Below, piece after piece: positions 12,153-34,080 of a stretch of 64,000 nt of DNA. The first letter of the stretch is position 1, and every line of letters begins with the position of its first letter. The stretch covers positions 62,001 to 126,000 of the forward strand of contig VCMS01000036.1 of the NCBI GenBank assembly GCA_022539475.1. The letters are read 5' to 3'. The notes below the pieces were generated by a model. The model was not told the DNA's origin. It saw nothing but the letters and a program-made list of their open reading frames with translations, and did no database searches. The stretch comes from Gracilaria domingensis. Taxonomy: Eukaryota; Rhodophyta; Florideophyceae; Gracilariales; Gracilariaceae. The position numbers and the translations under genes were made by a program.

Positions 12153-13076
12153 TTACTGCAGCCAGCTTCCGGAAGCCTTCTCACCTTCCGCCTTGTTCCT
12201 GGCATTGTCATTTACAGAATCGACTGCACCGAGATTGAGTTGCAGAGTATCCGCATCGAGGTAAACTCTGTTTTGACTTCTCTGCACAACGGTGGCGATC
12301 TCCCTTGCAGCTTCAATTCTTCGGAGTTGGATAAAGGCAGGATTATCACGCATGGCATCGCCAATCATCTGAGCTGATCTGGCTTCACCTTCCGCGCGAA
12401 TGATTGCGGACTTCTTGTCCTGCTTTGCCTTCTCAACGATGAATCTTGCCCGTTCGGCTTCTTGTTGAGCCACTTGCTTAGCTTCAACGGCAGCAGTGTA
12501 CTCCTTTCCGAAAGAAAGGTGAGTGATGGACACATCATCCAACAGGATATGAAAATCGAGTGCGCGACGCGTGAGGTTTTGAGATATTAGCTTGGACACT
12601 TGTTCTCTCTGCGTGATAAGCTGAGAAGCATTGAACTGAGCAACGACGGACTTGAGCACCTCATTGACAATGCTGGGCAACACGCGATCGTCCCAGTCTG
12701 TTCCCAACGTACGATAAATGCTTGGCAGAGCTTCAGCATCTGGGCGCGACAGCACACGCAGAGTTATGGTAACCATCTGCAGATCTCGCGAACCAGTAAG
12801 CGACTGAATGTTGCGCGGCTTCGCACGGACATCATAGATAATCGGCATGTCAATGAAAGGAATGCGAACATGAGTGCCTTCTCCGTATACGTGTTCGCGC
12901 ACGCCGATGATTCGGTTGAAAAGCACAGCTCGGTGACCACCGTCAACGTTGAAGAGTCCATATCGATACGCACTGGACAGACCAACAACGCCCGCTGCGA
13001 GTGCGCCTAGAGCGCGGGCTCCAGGCGGTCCACCCTGCGGCATGCGCATGTTGGGCATGGGAGGGACTTGCGCCAT
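12153..13076 (-). CDS. PHB2: Prohibitin-2
   Basis: A 307-residue single-exon protein from the ATG at 13076 ([10 protein letters not shown]); the frame is open 35 codons further upstream, but PHB2 proteins begin about here. An N-terminal hydrophobic segment ([21 protein letters not shown]) anchors it in the inner mitochondrial membrane. The SPFH/PHB domain follows ([32 protein letters not shown]), then a long Ala/Glu/Lys coiled coil used in ring assembly with PHB1. Prohibitins scaffold respiratory complexes and regulate the m-AAA protease. It is divergent from the PI3K-like gene at 13596. Confidence 0.93.
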
Positions 13077-13595
13077 TGCGAAAAGATGAGAAAGCAAGTT
13101 AGGGATGGAGAAGGATTTGTATTGAAGTCGGGGAAGGCCGATCTGCGATCTTCCGGCAGGTGGGCGCCGGCGGGGATGCACGCCGTGGCGCCGGGATCAA
13201 CTTGGCATGTGGAATGGGATCAGCGCGACCACGACCGGAAGCGGTGCTTTGCTTGCATGCGCGCGTGGCACAAATGGCAAACGGCGATTGGCGAAGGCGG
13301 CTGACGGGCCCAAGCGGCTGACCTAGAGCTGACGCTGCCCGGAACGGGGCTACACTTAGAGGGCAGTTTGCTGAGATTCACCTTTGTGACTTACACCATA
13401 TGACGTGTAAGAAACACATACCGCGTTTACTCGCTCTCAATGAGGCGGCCGATTTCCGATGTGCCCTCCTGTAATCATGTATGGCATCCTACCAACGGTA
13501 GATAGAACAAACGAACGCTCTCGACGAGCAACTCCACTCTTTGGCCCCTCTTCTTCGACAACGAACATGTCCAGCCTTTTACATCAACAGCAACA
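13077..13595. promoter_or_regulatory. Shared intergenic region of PHB2 and the PI3K-like gene
   Basis: 519 bp lie between two divergent start codons, so both promoters must be here or within the first exons. Part of the right side is open in the PI3K-like direction, so that gene may start earlier. No specific site is recognised. Confidence 0.45.
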
Positions 13596-18890: not shown

Positions 18891-20567
18891 CTACAAGGGC
18901 GCCATCCCGCTCGAAGGCATCAAATCTTCGCCCCGGGAAGGCCTTACGAGAAACATGTCATAGAGCGCCCGCTCCAAGAGCTCGCTACAGTTCGCATCTT
19001 CCGGATTGTTCCGCAATGCTCGATGGTACATGGCCACTGCTCCCTCTAAATCCCACATTGCATGTAGGGTCATTCCCAGAGCGCTACAAGTACCAGCGCT
19101 GCGAGGCCGCAGAGCCAATGCTCGTTCGTAACACCGTTTCGCCGCATTGTAATCTTTTTGCCGCCGATAGCAATGGCCGAGATTCACGAGCGTAGCCTCC
19201 TCCGCTTCTGCTCGTTTCCCACTTCTTCTCGAAACATCTTTCGACGCATCACCAGACTCCCAAAGTCCCAAAGCCTCTTTGAAGTAGGCAGCAGCTCCTG
19301 CATGATCGCCCATACGATACAAGACCACCCCAAGCTCGTGTACGGGAGCTGGATCCCTTGGACAGGCTTCCGCTGCTCGCCGAAGCATAGTCGCAGCCTG
19401 GTTAAGAGAGCCTTGTCGAACATACTCCATCCCCATGAACAACAGAGGTTCCTGCGAGCCGGGGAAAAGTCTGGTTACCGTTCGGTACGCCGCCATGGCT
19501 TGGTCACTTTCATCTTGAGTACCAAAAGCGTGTCCAATCGCAATCCAAGCAGGAGCAACGCGCATGTCGAGAGCGGTACACTTCTGGAAGAAGCGGCGCG
19601 CCAATTCTGGTTTGCCGCTGACCAGATAGTGGTATCCGACTGCAAGCCAACTAATTGCCGACTTGGGAGCATTGTCAACAAGATTGTGAGCGGTCAAAAA
19701 GAGCTCATTTCTTTCGTTGAGCTCCACCAGCGTAGCAAGATATATGGGGAGAATCTTGTGCGCATGAGGATCACTCCGCAAGATTTGTCGACAATCCTCC
19801 AGACAGCTGCCAAATTTCAAGGAGCTGAACTTGCGTTTAGCGTGAACGATCTTCAAATCAATGTTGTCGTTCATTGAAGGCGAAGAGGGGGTTTCGACGT
19901 CATGGTTAGCACACGCGGTATAATAAGAAGAAAGCCATTTCCTGGCGAGGGCGTGAGCTTGAGGTGTTGAGGGAGTATCTGAAAGCGATTCGTTGACAAA
20001 ATTGGCAGCTTCTGAGGGAGGAAGCAAGCGTGCATTAGAAAGGGCTTCAAATGCTTCGACACAAAAGATGTCGCAGCGGAAGGCACGTTTATACCACAGC
20101 AAGGCGCATTCTGGATTTTCAAGGCGTTCGTACACTCGAGCGCGAAGAACGCACAGAGCTGCATGGAGCTCGCGAGGGGCGCCTCTCAAAGTGAGGGTTG
20201 AGATGGCACTGTCCACTGCTTGCTCATCGCCCAATAGAGAAAGACATGCATCATAATCACGGAGTTCAAAATGACACTGTGCTGCTAGCAGTCTGGCTGT
20301 CTGATGCTGGGAAGGCAGATCGTTTGATTCCAGGACGTGCAACGCTCTGCGGTACTGAGCGAGTGAGAAGAATAATCGAGCCTGAATGATGAAATGCTGG
20401 GGTGTCGAAGATATGGAGGCGGCTTTGTCGGCGTAGAAAATGGCAGTTTGGTGCATTCCAAGCTGATGGTACAGTGATACCTTCTGCTGAAAGGAGGAAA
20501 GAATGGCATTGACGGATGGAGACGGGGGCTGATTGGCGTTGGATTGCTGCATTGCTTGTTGTCGCAT
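18891..20567 (-). CDS. CDC16: Anaphase-promoting complex subunit 6 (CDC16)
   Basis: 558 residues from the ATG at 20567; the frame is open further upstream, but that part is not protein-like. The protein is an array of TPRs. The diagnostic stretches are SAISWLAVGYHYLVSGKPEL, APAWIAIGHAFG, ATRLFPGS-type TRLFPGSQEPLLFMGMEYVR, PVHELGVVLYRMGDHAGA and ATLVNLGHCYRRQKDY, matching APC6/CDC16 in order. It is a scaffold subunit of the APC/C ubiquitin ligase that controls mitotic exit. The Gln-rich N-terminus is shorter than in animals, and the Ser/Lys insert near residue 455 is lineage-specific. It is divergent from the TMCO4-like gene. Confidence 0.9.
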   Translation of the reverse strand: MRQQAMQQSNANQPPSPSVNAILSSFQQKVSLYHQLGMHQTAIFYADKAASISSTPQHFIIQARLFFSLAQYRRALHVLESNDLPSQHQTARLLAAQCHFELRDYDACLSLLGDEQAVDSAISTLTLRGAPRELHAALCVLRARVYERLENPECALLWYKRAFRCDIFCVEAFEALSNARLLPPSEAANFVNESLSDTPSTPQAHALARKWLSSYYTACANHDVETPSSPSMNDNIDLKIVHAKRKFSSLKFGSCLEDCRQILRSDPHAHKILPIYLATLVELNERNELFLTAHNLVDNAPKSAISWLAVGYHYLVSGKPELARRFFQKCTALDMRVAPAWIAIGHAFGTQDESDQAMAAYRTVTRLFPGSQEPLLFMGMEYVRQGSLNQAATMLRRAAEACPRDPAPVHELGVVLYRMGDHAGAAAYFKEALGLWESGDASKDVSRRSGKRAEAEEATLVNLGHCYRRQKDYNAAKRCYERALALRPRSAGTCSALGMTLHAMWDLEGAVAMYHRALRNNPEDANCSELLERALYDMFLVRPSRGEDLMPSSGMAPL

Positions 20568-21124
20568 AACGTTGTGGGTGTCAGGTTCAGTTAGAGGTCG
20601 TAGATCTTGTGGGGTGAGTGAGTGAGTGAGGAAGGTCGGGGAAAACTTGTAGCAGAAGGCAGAAGCGAAGCGGGTGAGCAATCTGCGCAGTTGGGAGTCC
20701 CAATTTGGGACACAAGGCCGGTTGGAACTTCCAACTTGGAAGTTCCGACTCGGAACGAATGCAACGGTTCCGACGAGCAACCGTTGCAAAGAGTCTTTGC
20801 CAAAGACGAGCATCGCCTAATCAAATCGCATTTCTTAAAGAGTATTAAAATAAACAAGGCGCCCAGCAAGGAACGCACGCGCGAATCTCTCGCCGGTCAT
20901 ATTCGACTGTACGTGCAAAACACGACGCAGAGCGGCCTTAGCGTCGTTGCCGCGTTGCGTTTGCAGCCGATGGCCACACGCACACAATGCCAATTCGTCG
21001 CATTGCGCCGCGCTCGCCCGCCGCCTTCCCCGTGTGAGCAGCCGCCGCGCTGCGCCATGGCTGCTCACAGCTCCACGCACCCGCCTCCCGCCCGCCATGA
21101 CCTTCCCCCCCGCCGCCGCGCTCC
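20568..21124. promoter_or_regulatory. Shared intergenic region of CDC16 and the TMCO4-like gene
   Basis: 557 bp between divergent start codons. GC content rises toward the TMCO4-like start (20980-21124). A short direct and inverted motif cluster around 20690-20790 (GGAACTTCCAACTTGGAAGTTCC) forms an evident palindrome-like site that may bind a factor; this is inference. Confidence 0.45.
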
Positions 21125-24100
21125 ATGACGCACACCCCCATGGGCGCCGCCCCGACGGACCGCACCTCCGCGCCCGCTTTGTCCCCGCTTCCCACGCTGG
21201 AGGACGCGCAGCAGTCGCATCAACTCATCCCCTCGGTCACGTTGGAGCAACTTGAACAGCCGCTGCCCGCTTCGCCTTCCATTCCCTTGCTCTCTGTCGA
21301 TGAGCCTTTGAAGGGCTTTGACACCTTGGACGATGTGCAGCGCTTTTCTTTGGGGGCCTTGGCCGTCGTTCTTCTCAATGAACGCGCCAATGACTTGAAC
21401 GACATTGCCTTTGCCAGAACACAGTCTACAAACATTTTGCAAGCGCTCAATCTTAGCCCCAGTCAGCAAACCGCTCTCATTGCGCTTGAACCTTCATCCC
21501 CCTCTCGAAATGACGTCATAACGGACTGCGTCAATTTGGTTGGCGACGAAGATTCCCGCTTTCGATCCCTGCAAGCAATGTTGGCCATTTCGGTCGCAGC
21601 CGGAACCTACGACGCGAGAAGTCGAGCATTTTTGACCTCCGTTGCCGTGCATTTTCGGATACCATGGCCGGTCGTCGCTGCCGTTGAGCTCGCTGTCGCC
21701 ATTCATCTCCTTGAACAAGCACAAGCGGCTTCGTCGGGAGCTCCAGCCGAATCGTTGCCCCAACTACCTCTTCGCGGTTCCACTGCAAGTGACGATAGTC
21801 TATCCACCACCTCGTCCAGCGCGTCGAGGCCCAACGCCAAGTCAGTTGACCAGCTGCTTACTGAACGACGCAAGAAGAAGATTCGCGTGAAGAAAGCGAT
21901 GAAGATTGGTGGAATCACCCTTGCAGGCGGCGTCATGTTTGGGCTCACGGGTGGGCTCATTGCACCGGCGCTTCTCACTGCGCTTGCAGGCGTTGGTGTA
22001 GCTGGTGCAGCTGGACTTGCTGCATCTGGCTCCGTTGCATCAGCTGCTGTTGTGGGTGGCCTCTTCGGCGTTGCTGGTGCAGGCTTCTCGGTGAAGAAGG
22101 CAAAGAATCGCGTGAGCACCACTCTTGAAGAGTTTGACTTTGAACATCCGGATGACCCGCGCGTGATTGAGGAGCGAAAGCGTCGCGTACAGCGAGAGAA
22201 AAGACGATGGGAGAAAGAGGTCGCTGAACGACTCAAGGCAGAGGCTGCCAAAGCGCATATGGCCATTGAAGACGACCCCGGCGCAGAGTCGCAGAAAAAG
22301 AAGGGCGAAATCGATGCGGAGAAAGAACTTCCGCGTCCGCCCACACAAAGCGATGATGAAGAAGACGAATACGACGACCTGGAGACTGGTAGCAAGAAGA
22401 GTTCTCATTTTGGTAAGCGCAAGAAGAAGCGAGAGAAGAGAAAGGTCGGCTCTCGTGGCCTCGAGTCGAGAAGCCAAGTTGCAAGTCTACATGTTTGTAT
22501 ATGTGTACCGGCTTGGCTTACTGACCGAGGTTTTGGCAGTGCGCTTGATCAGTTCGAACCTGCACTCAAGGTCGAGCTACCGTGCTCACAGCACATTGTT
22601 TTGCGGTGGGAGTCACGGAGACTGTTTGAGATGGCGATGGCGTTTGCCAAGTTTTGGGCCTCCAAGGCCACCGTTACCACTTTGCAGCAGACCTATCCTC
22701 ACGCCGTAGCTGCCGCCTCCACCATGGCGGGTGCTGTTGCGTTTGCCATAGCCATGCCTCTCACGGTCATGTCTTGCATGGACTATGTTGACAATCCGTG
22801 GTCAATTCTCGTTTCCCGCTCTAACGGTGCCGGCGAAGAACTTGCAGATGTGCTCGTTGAGCGGAGCTACGGGAATCGCCCGGTAACGCTATTCGCCTAT
22901 TCTATCGGAGCACGTGTGGTGCTCAAGTGCCTCGAGTCTCTTGCATCTCGCAGAGCGCACGGTATCGTAGACAACGTTTTCATCATGGGTGGAGCCGTCA
23001 CCGCTGATCCAGAGCGTTGGAAAAAGTTTTTGCCTGTTATTGCAGGTCGAATCGTCAACGCATATGGTTCCGATGACTGGGCACTTGCCTTTTTCCATAG
23101 GGGATGTGGACATGGGATGTATGTTGCTGGCTTGCGCAAAATGGAACTAGAAAGAGTGGAGAACCTGAACATGGCATATCTTGGTTTTGAGGGACATCGC
23201 GAACTTAAAGATTGCATCCCGCGTGTTATGCGTGCAATGGGTGTGGGAACTGGATACATTACAATGCCTCCTGCGAAACTGGTGAAGAAACGCAGTCGTT
23301 CTAAGCGACGGAGTCATTCTCTAGTTTGTGAAGAGCCGGGTAAATTGCACCATACGTCAAATGGGAATCACTCCCCAACAGGAACGGACTCGGACTCGGA
23401 ATCCAAAAATTCTGTAACTTCGTCTTTGCAAAAGGGTGCCCAGAGCGATGATAACGGTGTTCTTCTTCCTCCACCAATTGCGCACAATACTGCTGATGAC
23501 AACACTCCTTTATCGAACTATGACAAGTTGAGAGCATATCGGTCCAACTCCGACGCAGCAATAGGCACGAAATCAAAGTCACGATCGAAGTCATGGCTCT
23601 CGTGGGGATCATGGCCAGGAGTTGGGTTCCAGAAAAAGTCGAAAGGAAGGCCGAAGAATCCCAGCAGCAGCGTGAATGACAAACAAACCGGTCATTTCAC
23701 AGACGAGTTTAAAATTGCAGATGATGTTCAAACCGTGAGTATAGTGGTTCCATCAGCAGAGGAGGAAGATGAAATTCCTATCGTTGGTCCCGATACGCTT
23801 GATGGTCCTTATCCTGAAGACCGAAACACTTCCTCCGTCAACGTGGCATACACGGTAGAGTCCGTAGATGAAGTTCGACTTGAAAATGCTGATTTGGACG
23901 ACGATGAAGTTGAGGAGACCTTTGACTGGGAGAAGCAGAGGAGAATTTGGGATGAACAGGAGAGGCAGATTGAGGAACGGGGCTATGCGGATTCAGCAAT
24001 CGAAATTGAAGCACAAGGGAAAGTTATCCTTGGGTTAAGTATCGAGATTGCCGGTCGGCGTCTTCATCCTTTTGTGGAACAGGATGTCGAGTTGCCTGTG

Positions 24101-24646
24101 TCAAAGAAAGAAGAGGTATTCACCAACTGTTTGGAGGATCAAAGCGGAGTTGTCGTTCGTTTATACGAGCATGAGAGGCGAACGAAAACGGTTCCTCTCA
24201 ACATGCTGAGATACACCGAGCGCTATCCCAAGCTGCTAGGCGAGTTGGAAGTGATGTTTCGTGGAAAGGCGCGGCGAGGAGATCTGCGAATCGCTGTGTC
24301 CGTGAGCGTGGATGAAGATGGTGATGTGAACCTAAGTGTGGAGGAGCGTTTTGATGACAATAATGTCGGTGAGCAGGCTGAACTGTCAGTATCGCGTTCG
24401 GATCTGTGCACCATGGGAGAACGGCTGCGACTGGAAGCTGCGGAGCGAAGTCGCGCCGAAGCGCGTCGAGAAAAGGAAAAGTTGAAGAGTGATCTGGAAT
24501 CAGTGAAAGCGCTTCCGGCGGCGGAGGAGTCGAAAACATATAGCCATGACAATCAAACCGGCCCTGTGTCGAACGAGGCACTGAATGTGAACCGTGCGGA
24601 GGAGGGGCAAAATGCAGCAGAAGAGAGTGACGTTACACGTCCATAG
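21125..24646 (+). CDS. TMCO4/DUF726-family membrane hydrolase fused to an Hsp70-like substrate-binding domain
   Basis: 1173 residues in one exon. Residues 258-325 are a Gly/Ala-rich hydrophobic double-pass segment (GGVMFGLTGGLIAPALL and following). The alpha/beta-hydrolase domain of the DUF726/TMCO4 family runs from about residue 455 to 705: nucleophile elbow AYSIGAR with Ser593, acid at Asp650 or Asp651 (AYGSDDWAL), and His691 (FEGHREL). A Ser/Lys-rich linker follows. Residues about 966-1090 look like the beta-sandwich of the Hsp70 substrate-binding domain (LGLSIEIAG, ELPVSKKEEVFT, EDQSGVVVRLYEHER, VDEDGDVNLSVEE), and 1100-1150 resembles the start of the helical lid. No Hsp70 ATPase domain is present. 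The hydrolase substrate is unknown; yeast Mil1/Yfl034w is a family member. The fusion is not one I know. Confidence 0.82.
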   Translation: MTHTPMGAAPTDRTSAPALSPLPTLEDAQQSHQLIPSVTLEQLEQPLPASPSIPLLSVDEPLKGFDTLDDVQRFSLGALAVVLLNERANDLNDIAFARTQSTNILQALNLSPSQQTALIALEPSSPSRNDVITDCVNLVGDEDSRFRSLQAMLAISVAAGTYDARSRAFLTSVAVHFRIPWPVVAAVELAVAIHLLEQAQAASSGAPAESLPQLPLRGSTASDDSLSTTSSSASRPNAKSVDQLLTERRKKKIRVKKAMKIGGITLAGGVMFGLTGGLIAPALLTALAGVGVAGAAGLAASGSVASAAVVGGLFGVAGAGFSVKKAKNRVSTTLEEFDFEHPDDPRVIEERKRRVQREKRRWEKEVAERLKAEAAKAHMAIEDDPGAESQKKKGEIDAEKELPRPPTQSDDEEDEYDDLETGSKKSSHFGKRKKKREKRKVGSRGLESRSQVASLHVCICVPAWLTDRGFGSALDQFEPALKVELPCSQHIVLRWESRRLFEMAMAFAKFWASKATVTTLQQTYPHAVAAASTMAGAVAFAIAMPLTVMSCMDYVDNPWSILVSRSNGAGEELADVLVERSYGNRPVTLFAYSIGARVVLKCLESLASRRAHGIVDNVFIMGGAVTADPERWKKFLPVIAGRIVNAYGSDDWALAFFHRGCGHGMYVAGLRKMELERVENLNMAYLGFEGHRELKDCIPRVMRAMGVGTGYITMPPAKLVKKRSRSKRRSHSLVCEEPGKLHHTSNGNHSPTGTDSDSESKNSVTSSLQKGAQSDDNGVLLPPPIAHNTADDNTPLSNYDKLRAYRSNSDAAIGTKSKSRSKSWLSWGSWPGVGFQKKSKGRPKNPSSSVNDKQTGHFTDEFKIADDVQTVSIVVPSAEEEDEIPIVGPDTLDGPYPEDRNTSSVNVAYTVESVDEVRLENADLDDDEVEETFDWEKQRRIWDEQERQIEERGYADSAIEIEAQGKVILGLSIEIAGRRLHPFVEQDVELPVSKKEEVFTNCLEDQSGVVVRLYEHERRTKTVPLNMLRYTERYPKLLGELEVMFRGKARRGDLRIAVSVSVDEDGDVNLSVEERFDDNNVGEQAELSVSRSDLCTMGERLRLEAAERSRAEARREKEKLKSDLESVKALPAAEESKTYSHDNQTGPVSNEALNVNRAEEGQNAAEESDVTRP

Positions 24647-31010: not shown

Positions 31011-31887
31011 TCAGCTGACGTGGCTGATCTCGGTGACGTCCAGCTGCACAATGTCCGCAAAGCACTGCAGCGTGGAGGCGACGCTCGGAACGGTGCGGCC
31101 GTTGTCGCCGTGCACAAACTCCTTGATGTAGGTGCCGGCCTGCGCAACGACGTCCAGCACCACAAAGTGGCGGTTGAGCACGCGGCGCACGCTGGCGGAG
31201 AAGATGGTCTTGGCGCGCACGGCGTGCGTGCGGCGGTGCAGCACGCGCAGCGGCGTGCGCTGCGCGACGCTGACGTCTTGCATGTTGAGCAGCTGCACTT
31301 TACGCTCATCCAGGACAGCCTCGGTGTAAATGACACAGCGGTAGTGCTTGCGCTTCTCCGCCTCGAACTGGCGCATGGCCGCAAAGTACGCGGCGCGCTC
31401 CACGCGCAGCTGGTGCACGCGCACGCCCGCGCCGTCGACGGCGGCCTCGATGGCGGCCAGCATGCGGCGGTCCACCAGCGACGGCACCACGGCGGCGCGC
31501 TGCAGCTCCAGCACGAACGGGCGCCCGCGCCCCAGCATTCGCACGTCCACGTCCTCGCGGCCGCCCGCCGTGAAGGTGGCGCGCTCGTACGGGATCACCT
31601 GCCGCACGGCGCGCTCCACGCACGACTGCACGCTGCGCTCGACGCGCGCGCCGCCGGCGCGCGCGGCGCCCACGGTCCACGGCGTCTGCGACACGACGCG
31701 CGACAGCTTGGTGTAGCTGGCGGCCAGCAGCAGCGGCACCGTCTCCACGACCACGCTGACCGCCACGGGCTGCGCCACGCGCGGCAGCGCCATGACGTGC
31801 GGCGCCGCCACCTCAAACTCCCTGTCGGACATGACGTCCAGCACCTTTTGCGCCGCGGTGATCGACACCTCCGCGCGCGCGCGCTTC

Positions 31888-31933
<46 letters not shown>

Positions 31934-32347
31934 GGCGCGCGCGCAGGAACGCGCCCTCGGCGGCGGTCTCGGCGTGCTCGTAGAAGAGGCGCACGACGAC
32001 CTCGGCGTCGGCGTCGTAGCGCAGCGGCGCCAGCAGCGGGCGCAGCGCGGCGCGCAGCGCGTCGCGCACGGACAGCGCGCGCGGCGCGCGGCGGCGCAGC
32101 AGGAAGGCGCGCTCGCGCAGCAGCGCCGCGGACAGCGGCAGCGACGCGGCCACGCGGTACGCGCGCGCGTGGCGCAGCGCCGCCAGCTGCGCGAGCGCCG
32201 CGCGCGCCGCCTCGTGCAGCGCGCGCGGCTGCAGCACGCCCAGACACACCGCGCACGGCCGCGCGTCGCCGCCGCCCGCCGCCGCGCGCTCGTAGCGCCG
32301 CGGGTCGCGCTCGTTGCGCGCGCGCAACGCGCAGCGCGCGCACGCGC

Positions 32348-32381
<34 letters not shown>

Positions 32382-32399
32382 GCCGTCGTCGTCGTCCAT
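31011..32399 (-). CDS. PUS10: tRNA pseudouridine synthase Pus10
   Basis: 462 residues from the ATG at 32399, single exon. The N-terminus has an Asp/Gly run, then two CxxC pairs (CARC and CAVC) of the zinc-binding THUMP-containing half, then a (Gly)15 run encoded by a GCC repeat. The catalytic half has YTKLSRVVSQTPW, then the signature GREDVDVRMLGRGRPFVLE with the catalytic Asp, and near the end AQAGTYIKEFVHGDNGRTVPS. It makes pseudouridine 54/55 in tRNA in archaea and eukaryotes. The coding sequence is over 70 percent GC by eye and has a strong codon bias shared with its neighbours. It is divergent from the sigma factor gene. Confidence 0.93.
31888..31933. repeat. (GCC)n trinucleotide run inside PUS10
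   Basis: About fifteen CCG/GCC units that encode the poly-Gly insert of Pus10 between the zinc-binding and catalytic halves. Such runs are prone to length change. Confidence 0.9.
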
Positions 32400-32841
32400 G
32401 GCGCGTCGTGGCGGCGGCGCGCGGCCGTTGATCCGCCGCGTGATGAGCGATCACATCACATGCGCTCGCGCGCCGCGCCACGTCCCGCCACCACGTCCGC
32501 CACGAGTACCACGTCTGCCGCGTCGCGCCGCGGCCACGCGGCGCCAGCGGCCAGCGCTGCGGCGGCGCGAGCGCAGATATTATGCGAGGCGGCGCACGCG
32601 CGGCCAGCCGTTCGGCGGCGCGCGATCTGACGCCGCAGCCGCGCGCGCGCCGCGCAGCGCCTCCGCGCGACACGCGCGCGGCGCCGCGAGCGCCGCAGCT
32701 TCCGCCTCCGCGCGGCGCCCTCAAAGTGCTCGCCGCGCGCGCATCGCCCACGCCCCGCGCCCGCGCCCGCCCGCCCGCCCGCCCGCCCGCCGCCGCCGCC
32801 CCGCCCCCCCCTCCCGCCGCCGCCCCGCCGCCGCCCGCGCC
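32400..32841. promoter_or_regulatory. Shared GC-rich intergenic region of PUS10 and the sigma factor gene
   Basis: 442 bp between divergent start codons, very GC-rich with CpG-dense and CCGCC-rich stretches. No TATA-like sequence is evident. Long open frames cross it on both strands, but this follows from the lack of A+T-rich stop codons and is not evidence for coding. Confidence 0.45.
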
Positions 32842-34080
32842 ATGTCGCTGCTCGCGCCCGCCTTCCTGCCGCCCGTCGTGCCGCCGCGGCTGGCGCCGCC
32901 GCGCCGCGCGCGCCGCCTCTGCATGATAGCCGCGCCCAAGCGCCGCGGCCGCCCGCGCACGCGCCGCGCGCGCGTGCCCAATGCGCCGCCCGCCCCGTCG
33001 CTGGCCGCCGCCGCCGCCGCCGCCACCGTCGCCGCCGCCCCCCCCAACGCCTCCACCGCCGCCGCCGGCAGCGACGGCGGCACCGCCGCCTCGCCGCCGC
33101 CGACGCCGCCGCCGACGCACGGCATGTCCGACAACACCGTGCGCTGGTACCTGCAGCTCATCGGCTCGGACCGCCTGCTCACCGCCGACGAGGAGGTCAA
33201 GTACGGCCGCCTCATCGCGCTGCTCATGCGCTGGCAGCGCAGCCGCGTGCAGCTGTCGGACGCCATTGGCCGCCAGCCCTCCGACGACGAGTGGGCCGAC
33301 TTTGTGGACGAGGACCGCCGCTCCTTTCGCCTGCGCCTCGCAGAGGCGCGCAAGGCAAAGGACAAGATGATTGTGTGCAACCTGCGCCTGGTGGTGTCCA
33401 TCGCCAAGCGCTACCTCAACCGCGGCATGCCGCTGTCCGACCTCATCCAGGAGGGCACGCTCGGGCTCATCCGCGCCTGCGAGAAGTTTGACGCCGACAA
33501 GGGCTTCAAGTTCTCCACCTACGCCACCTGGTGGGTGCGCCAGGCCGTCACGCGCTCCATTGCCGACCAGAGCCGCACCGTGCGCCTGCCCGTCCACCTG
33601 TACGACACCATCACCGCCATTCGCCGTGCCACCAAGTACCTCACCAACGAGCTGGGCCGCCCGCCGCTGGAGCACGAGCTGGCCGAGTACTGTAACATCA
33701 CCGTCGAGAAACTGCGCACCACGCGCGTCAACATGCAGAGCGCCATGCCGCTCGACTGCCCGCTCACCAGCGCCGACGACGCCCTCACGCTCAGCGACGT
33801 CATCGAGAGCGGCGCCGAGAGCCCCGAGGACCGCGTCGAGAGCTCGCTGTTGCGCGACGACCTGGAGCACGTGGTCAACAGTCTGACGCCGCGCGAGCGC
33901 GATGTGGTTCGCATGCGCTACGGACTGGACGACGGCAGGGCAAAGACTCTGGAGGAGATTGGGCGCGTTTTTGATGTCACCAAGGAGCGTGTCCGCCAGA
34001 TTGAGTCCAAGGCGCTGCGGAAACTCAGACATCCGTTCCGTTCGGCTGTTCTCAAGGCGTACGCACCTCCGGGCGCATAG
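32842..34080 (+). CDS. Nuclear-encoded plastid RNA polymerase sigma factor (sigma-70 family)
   Basis: 412 residues from the ATG at 32842. The first 100 residues are Ala/Pro/Arg-rich and fit a plastid transit peptide plus linker. Sigma region 1.2 begins TVRWYLQLIGSDRLLTADEE. Region 2 is textbook: NLRLVVSIAKRYLNRGMPLS, LIQEGTLGLIRACEKFD, then GFKFSTYATWWVRQAVTR. Region 3 and region 4 follow (LTPRERDVVRMRYGLDD; TLEEIGRVFDVTKERVRQIE). It directs the plastid-encoded RNA polymerase to promoters. Similar genes occur in red algae, plants and cyanobacteria; the N-terminal extension and setting favour a nuclear gene over bacterial contamination. Confidence 0.93.
   Translation: MSLLAPAFLPPVVPPRLAPPRRARRLCMIAAPKRRGRPRTRRARVPNAPPAPSLAAAAAAATVAAAPPNASTAAAGSDGGTAASPPPTPPPTHGMSDNTVRWYLQLIGSDRLLTADEEVKYGRLIALLMRWQRSRVQLSDAIGRQPSDDEWADFVDEDRRSFRLRLAEARKAKDKMIVCNLRLVVSIAKRYLNRGMPLSDLIQEGTLGLIRACEKFDADKGFKFSTYATWWVRQAVTRSIADQSRTVRLPVHLYDTITAIRRATKYLTNELGRPPLEHELAEYCNITVEKLRTTRVNMQSAMPLDCPLTSADDALTLSDVIESGAESPEDRVESSLLRDDLEHVVNSLTPRERDVVRMRYGLDDGRAKTLEEIGRVFDVTKERVRQIESKALRKLRHPFRSAVLKAYAPPGA

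Follow-up and report, generated by a model that had tools for sequence, protein, structure and literature searches.

The DNA considered here is a 64,000-nt window on contig VCMS01000036.1 of the red alga Gracilaria domingensis (GCA_022539475.1), and all coordinates are positions in this window (Table 1). One of its genes encodes, in a single frame of 1173 residues without a stop, a protein that is practically certain to combine a DUF726/TMCO4-type alpha/beta-hydrolase with a C-terminal Hsp70 substrate-binding domain (SBD). The parts follow each other in the order hydrolase, disordered linker of about 190 residues, SBD beta-sandwich and first lid helix. An earlier reading of the letters alone (the sequence-only reading) had proposed this uninterrupted frame, the identity of both domains and the lack of the Hsp70 ATPase domain, and all three proposals were borne out by the analyses described below.

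Table 1. Features of the fusion gene, its protein and the neighbouring genes (window positions)
Feature	Residues	Position	Strand	Basis
Open frame of the fusion protein, 1173 codons and stop		21125..24646	+	uninterrupted frame
N-terminal all-helical domain	70-204	21332..21736	+	AlphaFold, ten-residue blocks 75-96 over 71-200
Glycine-rich uncharged hydrophobic stretch, 63 residues	261-323	21905..22093	+	sequence
DUF726 alpha/beta-hydrolase domain	444-707	22454..23245	+	Pfam PF05277, 3.9e-68
Putative nucleophile	Ser593	22901..22903	+	37/37 rows
Putative catalytic acid	Asp651	23075..23077	+	37/37 rows
Putative catalytic histidine	His691	23195..23197	+	37/37 rows
Disordered linker	739-924	23339..23896	+	AlphaFold, pLDDT <50 at almost all residues, without helix or strand
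Basic-tryptophan motif (SKSWLSWGSW)	818-830	23576..23614	+	sequence, alignment
Conserved helix starting FDWEKQRRIW, N-terminal of the SBD	933-952	23921..23980	+	alignment, AlphaFold
Hsp70-type SBD	965-1104	24017..24436	+	sequence, profile and structure matches
Helix, start of lid	1097-1126	24413..24502	+	AlphaFold, only low-confidence tail beyond
SPFH/Band 7 protein		12156-13181	-	Pfam
TPR protein with ANAPC3 match, divergent from the fusion gene, 311 bases between the frames		18894-20813	-	Pfam
Pus10 C-terminal domain protein		31014-32399	-	Pfam
Sigma-70 factor gene, regions 1.2, 2, 3 and 4		32314-34077	+	Pfam

When the whole protein was compared with Pfam, the HSP70 match (residues 969-1139) remained below the cut-off (0.0037); with the C-terminal 233 residues alone it rose above it (7.1e-5). 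This match spans only positions ~392-557 of the 599 in the profile, i.e., the substrate-binding half. The NCBIfam DnaK model matched residues 969-1135 (3.2e-6), a single-sequence search of the C-terminal piece against PDB matched Hsp70 SBDs (best 7e-7), and a search with a 37-row profile returned 26 matches at E<=0.01, all of them Hsp70 (best 2e-8). The best PDB match of the window protein was a cytosolic Hsp70, that of its Galdieria homologue P0050 the SBD of a mitochondrial Hsp70 (6.1e-11). A structural check of the C-terminal region against Hsp70 SBDs had been set beforehand; residues 965-1104 matched Hsp70 SBD structures, the SBD beta-sandwich fold was present, and the root-mean-square deviation from the peptide-bound DnaK SBD was 1.7 Å. 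In the full-length Foldseek comparison, 48 of the 50 titles listed named Hsp70-family molecules and the hydrolase gained nothing; the remaining two rows were 7sqc_Z0, a ciliary entry also holding Hsp70A, and 6u42_5F, another ciliary entry. Identity in the structural alignment was low (~23%), as would fit a beta-sandwich that resembles the Hsp70 SBD by convergence only, but the single-sequence, profile, DnaK-model and Galdieria matches together with the structural match led us to reject this explanation as very improbable.

Three homologue searches defined the distribution of the fusion. The first, in which the 7988 candidates sharing most words were scored, yielded 40 proteins; the second, with the SBD-holding part of P0029 as query, yielded 12, all of them DUF726 proteins of the first set; and the third, with the divergent P0037 as query, gave 231 matches from 7994 scored candidates, of which the best 120 were used. 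The closest set comprises P0001-P0052, P0001 being the window's own protein. Of the 40 aligned rows of the first search, 38 have the SBD. A profile for which only matches with E<=1e-3 were used detects it in 50 of these 52 proteins (P0001 counted, P0046 in part), P0036 and P0040 being without it. The same profile found the SBD in none of the 69 other DUF726 proteins among the matches listed (best E 1.5), whose named records are animals, fungi and one fern, and in a Pfam scan of 35 of these 69, HSP70 was not among 25 of the 32 families matched. Among the named records, the fusion occurs in Agarophyton chilense, Gracilariopsis chorda, Chondrus crispus, Rhodosorus marinus (Stylonematophyceae), Porphyridium purpureum, Galdieria partita and G. 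sulphuraria; another carrier, with the label Galph1/Gphleg, was taken as G. phlegrea. Conservation in other red algae, which the sequence-only reading had suggested checking, therefore extends from Gracilariales and Chondrus to Rhodosorus, Porphyridium and Galdieria, and we consider this very probably an old, conserved fusion rather than a local accident.

These relatives also bear on the possibility that the fusion is an assembly artefact or a read-through of two adjacent genes. The odd architecture alone might suggest it, and the transcripts come from relatives, none of G. domingensis having been seen. However, the 50 closest proteins with the same domain order include the transcript-derived records P0002 (TRINITY) and P0045 (MMETSP), each carrying both halves. 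A further MMETSP transcript, P0046, holds the hydrolase and only the first half of the SBD, and P0003 is common to a GEZJ record, which we take to be a transcriptome. Because the relatives' transcripts span both parts, the two halves lie on one mRNA in other species, and transcripts giving each half as a separate gene were not found among them. The two-gene explanation was hence rejected, its probability being practically negligible.

The hydrolase half scored 230.4 bits against PF05277, compared with a curated cut-off of 22.6. For its active site the sequence-only reading had named Ser593, Asp650 or Asp651, and His691; Ser593, Asp651 and His691 held in every row (Table 1), whereas Asp650 occurs in only 5 of 37. 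The counterparts S529, D588 and H629 (P0053 numbering) are invariant in 35 other DUF726 proteins, and in this alignment Ser593-Asp651-His691 constitute a conserved putative catalytic triad. Passages of one paper term TMCO4 an orphan lipase recruited by RAB18, call its substrates unknown, and describe TMCO4-EGFP as diffuse in HeLa cells and drawn to the endoplasmic reticulum by RAB18 (PMC10641524). From this analogy to an orphan lipase brought to the endoplasmic reticulum we infer that the enzyme acts on a lipid or acyl ester.

Ahead of the hydrolase, the N-terminal helical domain showed a weak resemblance to TerB in 10 of 40 scanned proteins (Pfam, best E 0.0017). The glycine-rich stretch following it may form a membrane hairpin, and a second uncharged stretch of 38 residues spans 515-552. 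For the membrane attachment proposed in the sequence-only reading, the first of these stretches may speak, but according to a 2024 review human TMCO4 is predicted to be without a transmembrane element (PMC11878206).

To describe the working parts of the SBD, sites were named by what we take to be their DnaK residue numbers, mapped via an alignment of the window's SBD with PDB Hsp70; cleft residues were counted over 48 SBD rows and linker sites over 37. Judged from this alignment, the apolar peptide cleft is kept at five positions, counting Cys as apolar and with a single Ser as exception: the sites of I401 (I/V/L, Cys in four rows), F426 (F/Y/L), V436 (V/M/I/L), I438 (V/I/F/L) and I472 (residue 1056 of the fusion protein; I/V/F/L, one Ser). 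At the sites of Q433 and P419 no variation occurs in the 48 rows, from Galdieria to Gracilariales. Of 37 rows, 29 have Glu at the L390 site and 21 have Asn or Gly at the D393 site; at the K414 site, 38 of 48 rows have Gln and 4 have Lys. The interdomain linker and the residues that couple the SBD to the ATPase therefore appear mostly lost, the linker sites being variable and largely polar. A loop of ~10 residues with a YPK motif is inserted ahead of the LGELE strand. The helix preceding the SBD follows the pattern FDWxxQxx[IL]W in 38 of 121 proteins; it is missing from P0041-P0052, the Rhodosorus, Porphyridium and Galdieria proteins among them.

At the arch over the cleft, residues 1001-1002 (24125-24130) form an Asn-Cys pair that does not vary across 37 rows; over the larger set of 48 rows, Asn occurs in 44 and Cys in 40. 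A redox-sensitive cleft at this pair is conceivable.

The simplest reading of the distribution is a single fusion early in red algal history, before these lineages split, and the Arg that 47 of 48 rows have in common at the V407 site supports it. In a small, midpoint-rooted SBD tree of 22 rows, a branch (99/97) sets the five Hsp70s included apart, as would be required for one origin. Against a single origin speaks that, with the midpoint root, the Galdieria SBDs group with the Hsp70s (96/92), a placement that drew a program warning of long branches meeting there. Three Galdieria proteins, P0049, P0050 and P0051, carry an IQ calmodulin-binding motif C-terminal of the SBD, a hint that these copies could be under calcium control.

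How might such a protein work? We give an even chance to the SBD acting as a passive docking module for peptides, independent of nucleotide, by which a lipid hydrolase is positioned or regulated. Lacking an ATPase, the domain would not cycle; it would reversibly hold short hydrophobic stretches in partner or client proteins, and this grip would bring the hydrolase to them or regulate it. Picking of clients or sensing of unfolded protein, as the sequence-only reading had it, might be the use made of it. Peptide binding and location, like the substrate and the single origin, are inferred. Several observations weigh against such a docking role. The cleft positions also belong to the core of the beta-sandwich, so that their apolar character is no proof of peptide binding. 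The arch differs from that of DnaK, with Ala or Thr at the M404 site and, in 40 of 48 rows, Cys at the A429 site; at the V407 site, 47 of 48 rows have Arg. Affinity or specificity may therefore differ. The lid is reduced to one helix without a complete helical bundle. Finally, the full-length AlphaFold model is weak, with a mean predicted local distance difference test (pLDDT) score of 59.6, a predicted template modelling score of 0.48 and pLDDT values of 46-86 in the hydrolase blocks. The altered arch and V407 site, the shortened lid and the inserted YPK loop would equally suit an SBD that no longer binds peptides and serves through its outer surface as a structural, dimerisation or docking domain. 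We consider this rather unlikely, as the cleft positions have remained apolar with few exceptions, no row deviates at the Q433 or P419 site and the fold superimposes on the peptide-bound DnaK SBD with the deviation of 1.7 Å given above.

Alternatively, the ligand could come from the protein itself: the basic-tryptophan motif of the linker would fold into the SBD cleft and hold the enzyme off or stored until a hydrophobic segment displaces it. The motif is a recurrent apolar patch within a disordered, charged linker, and Hsp70 favours peptides with an apolar core flanked by basic residues. Among 48 proteins with the SBD, those of Galdieria included, 45 have such a patch (all but P0005, P0014 and P0034), compared with 17 of 68 tails of the other listed DUF726 proteins, one of the 69 having no placeable tail; since the criterion was set after the motif had been seen, these counts are a description and no test. 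Interactions with SBDs are reported for an Hsp70 linker and for GrpE tails (PMC3696110, PMC12915176). In the full-length AlphaFold model, however, the motif forms no strand (pLDDT 33-37), and a patch of this kind could just as well serve to anchor the protein in a membrane; we regard self-occupation of the cleft as unlikely. More improbable still is a further-reaching scenario, in which the SBD was cut from its ATPase before Galdieria split off from the other red algae and became a nucleotide-independent sensor for the hydrolase, with the linker motif as a bait that exposed hydrophobic segments of clients displace, linking protein folding state to local cutting of lipids.

Among the neighbouring genes (Table 1), the sigma-70 factor gene lies within a 2-kb stretch of 76% G+C, whereas most of the window has 43-56%; the factor is presumably nuclear-encoded and serves the plastid. 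HSP70 was matched in none of the 10 window frames scanned against Pfam, out of 16 frames of at least 250 amino acids.

The sequence-only reading knew of no described protein of this architecture, and no description was met in open-licence PMC papers, covered mostly at listing level. The main-text part of a paper on the Pyropia HSP70 family has no passage on DUF726, TMCO4, lipase or a fusion (PMC8464122), and the section of the review on DUF726 fusions names Gta3, Pex14_N, TRAM, radical SAM and fucosyltransferase as fused domains and no Hsp70 part (PMC11878206). For at least 7 proteins among the matches listed, the Pfam pair PF00012+PF05277 is precomputed; the database thus already holds the fusion, without comment, and the novelty lies in a new architecture built of known domains.

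The protein belongs to the same hydrolase family as TMCO4 and yeast Mil1 (Yfl034w; PF05277). Other DUF726 proteins likewise have the invariant putative triad and a glycine-rich stretch ahead of the hydrolase; the difference is the SBD, absent from the 69 other DUF726 proteins among the matches listed. The same genome contains a second DUF726 gene (L005:1482-3770, + strand; 762 aa, DUF726 1.3e-65), in whose protein no HSP70 match was obtained at E<=1. By eye, the segment that separates its glycine-rich part from its hydrolase differs in sequence and looks strand-rich and perhaps GOLD-like.

In Hsp70, the peptide-binding half is normally one half of an ATP-driven machine. The red algal protein resembles Hsp70/DnaK in the fold of the SBD, its apolar cleft and the start of the lid, and differs in lacking the ATPase domain and the coupling linker, in having mostly Gln at the K414 site and Arg at the V407 site, in a lid of one helix and in the extra loop. 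Since early red algal history, an enzyme has seemingly retained this half without the motor. If peptide binding persists, a chaperone grip would be usable simply for targeting or sensing, and the ligands of the SBD in red algae would point to partners or clients of the orphan TMCO4/DUF726 hydrolases.
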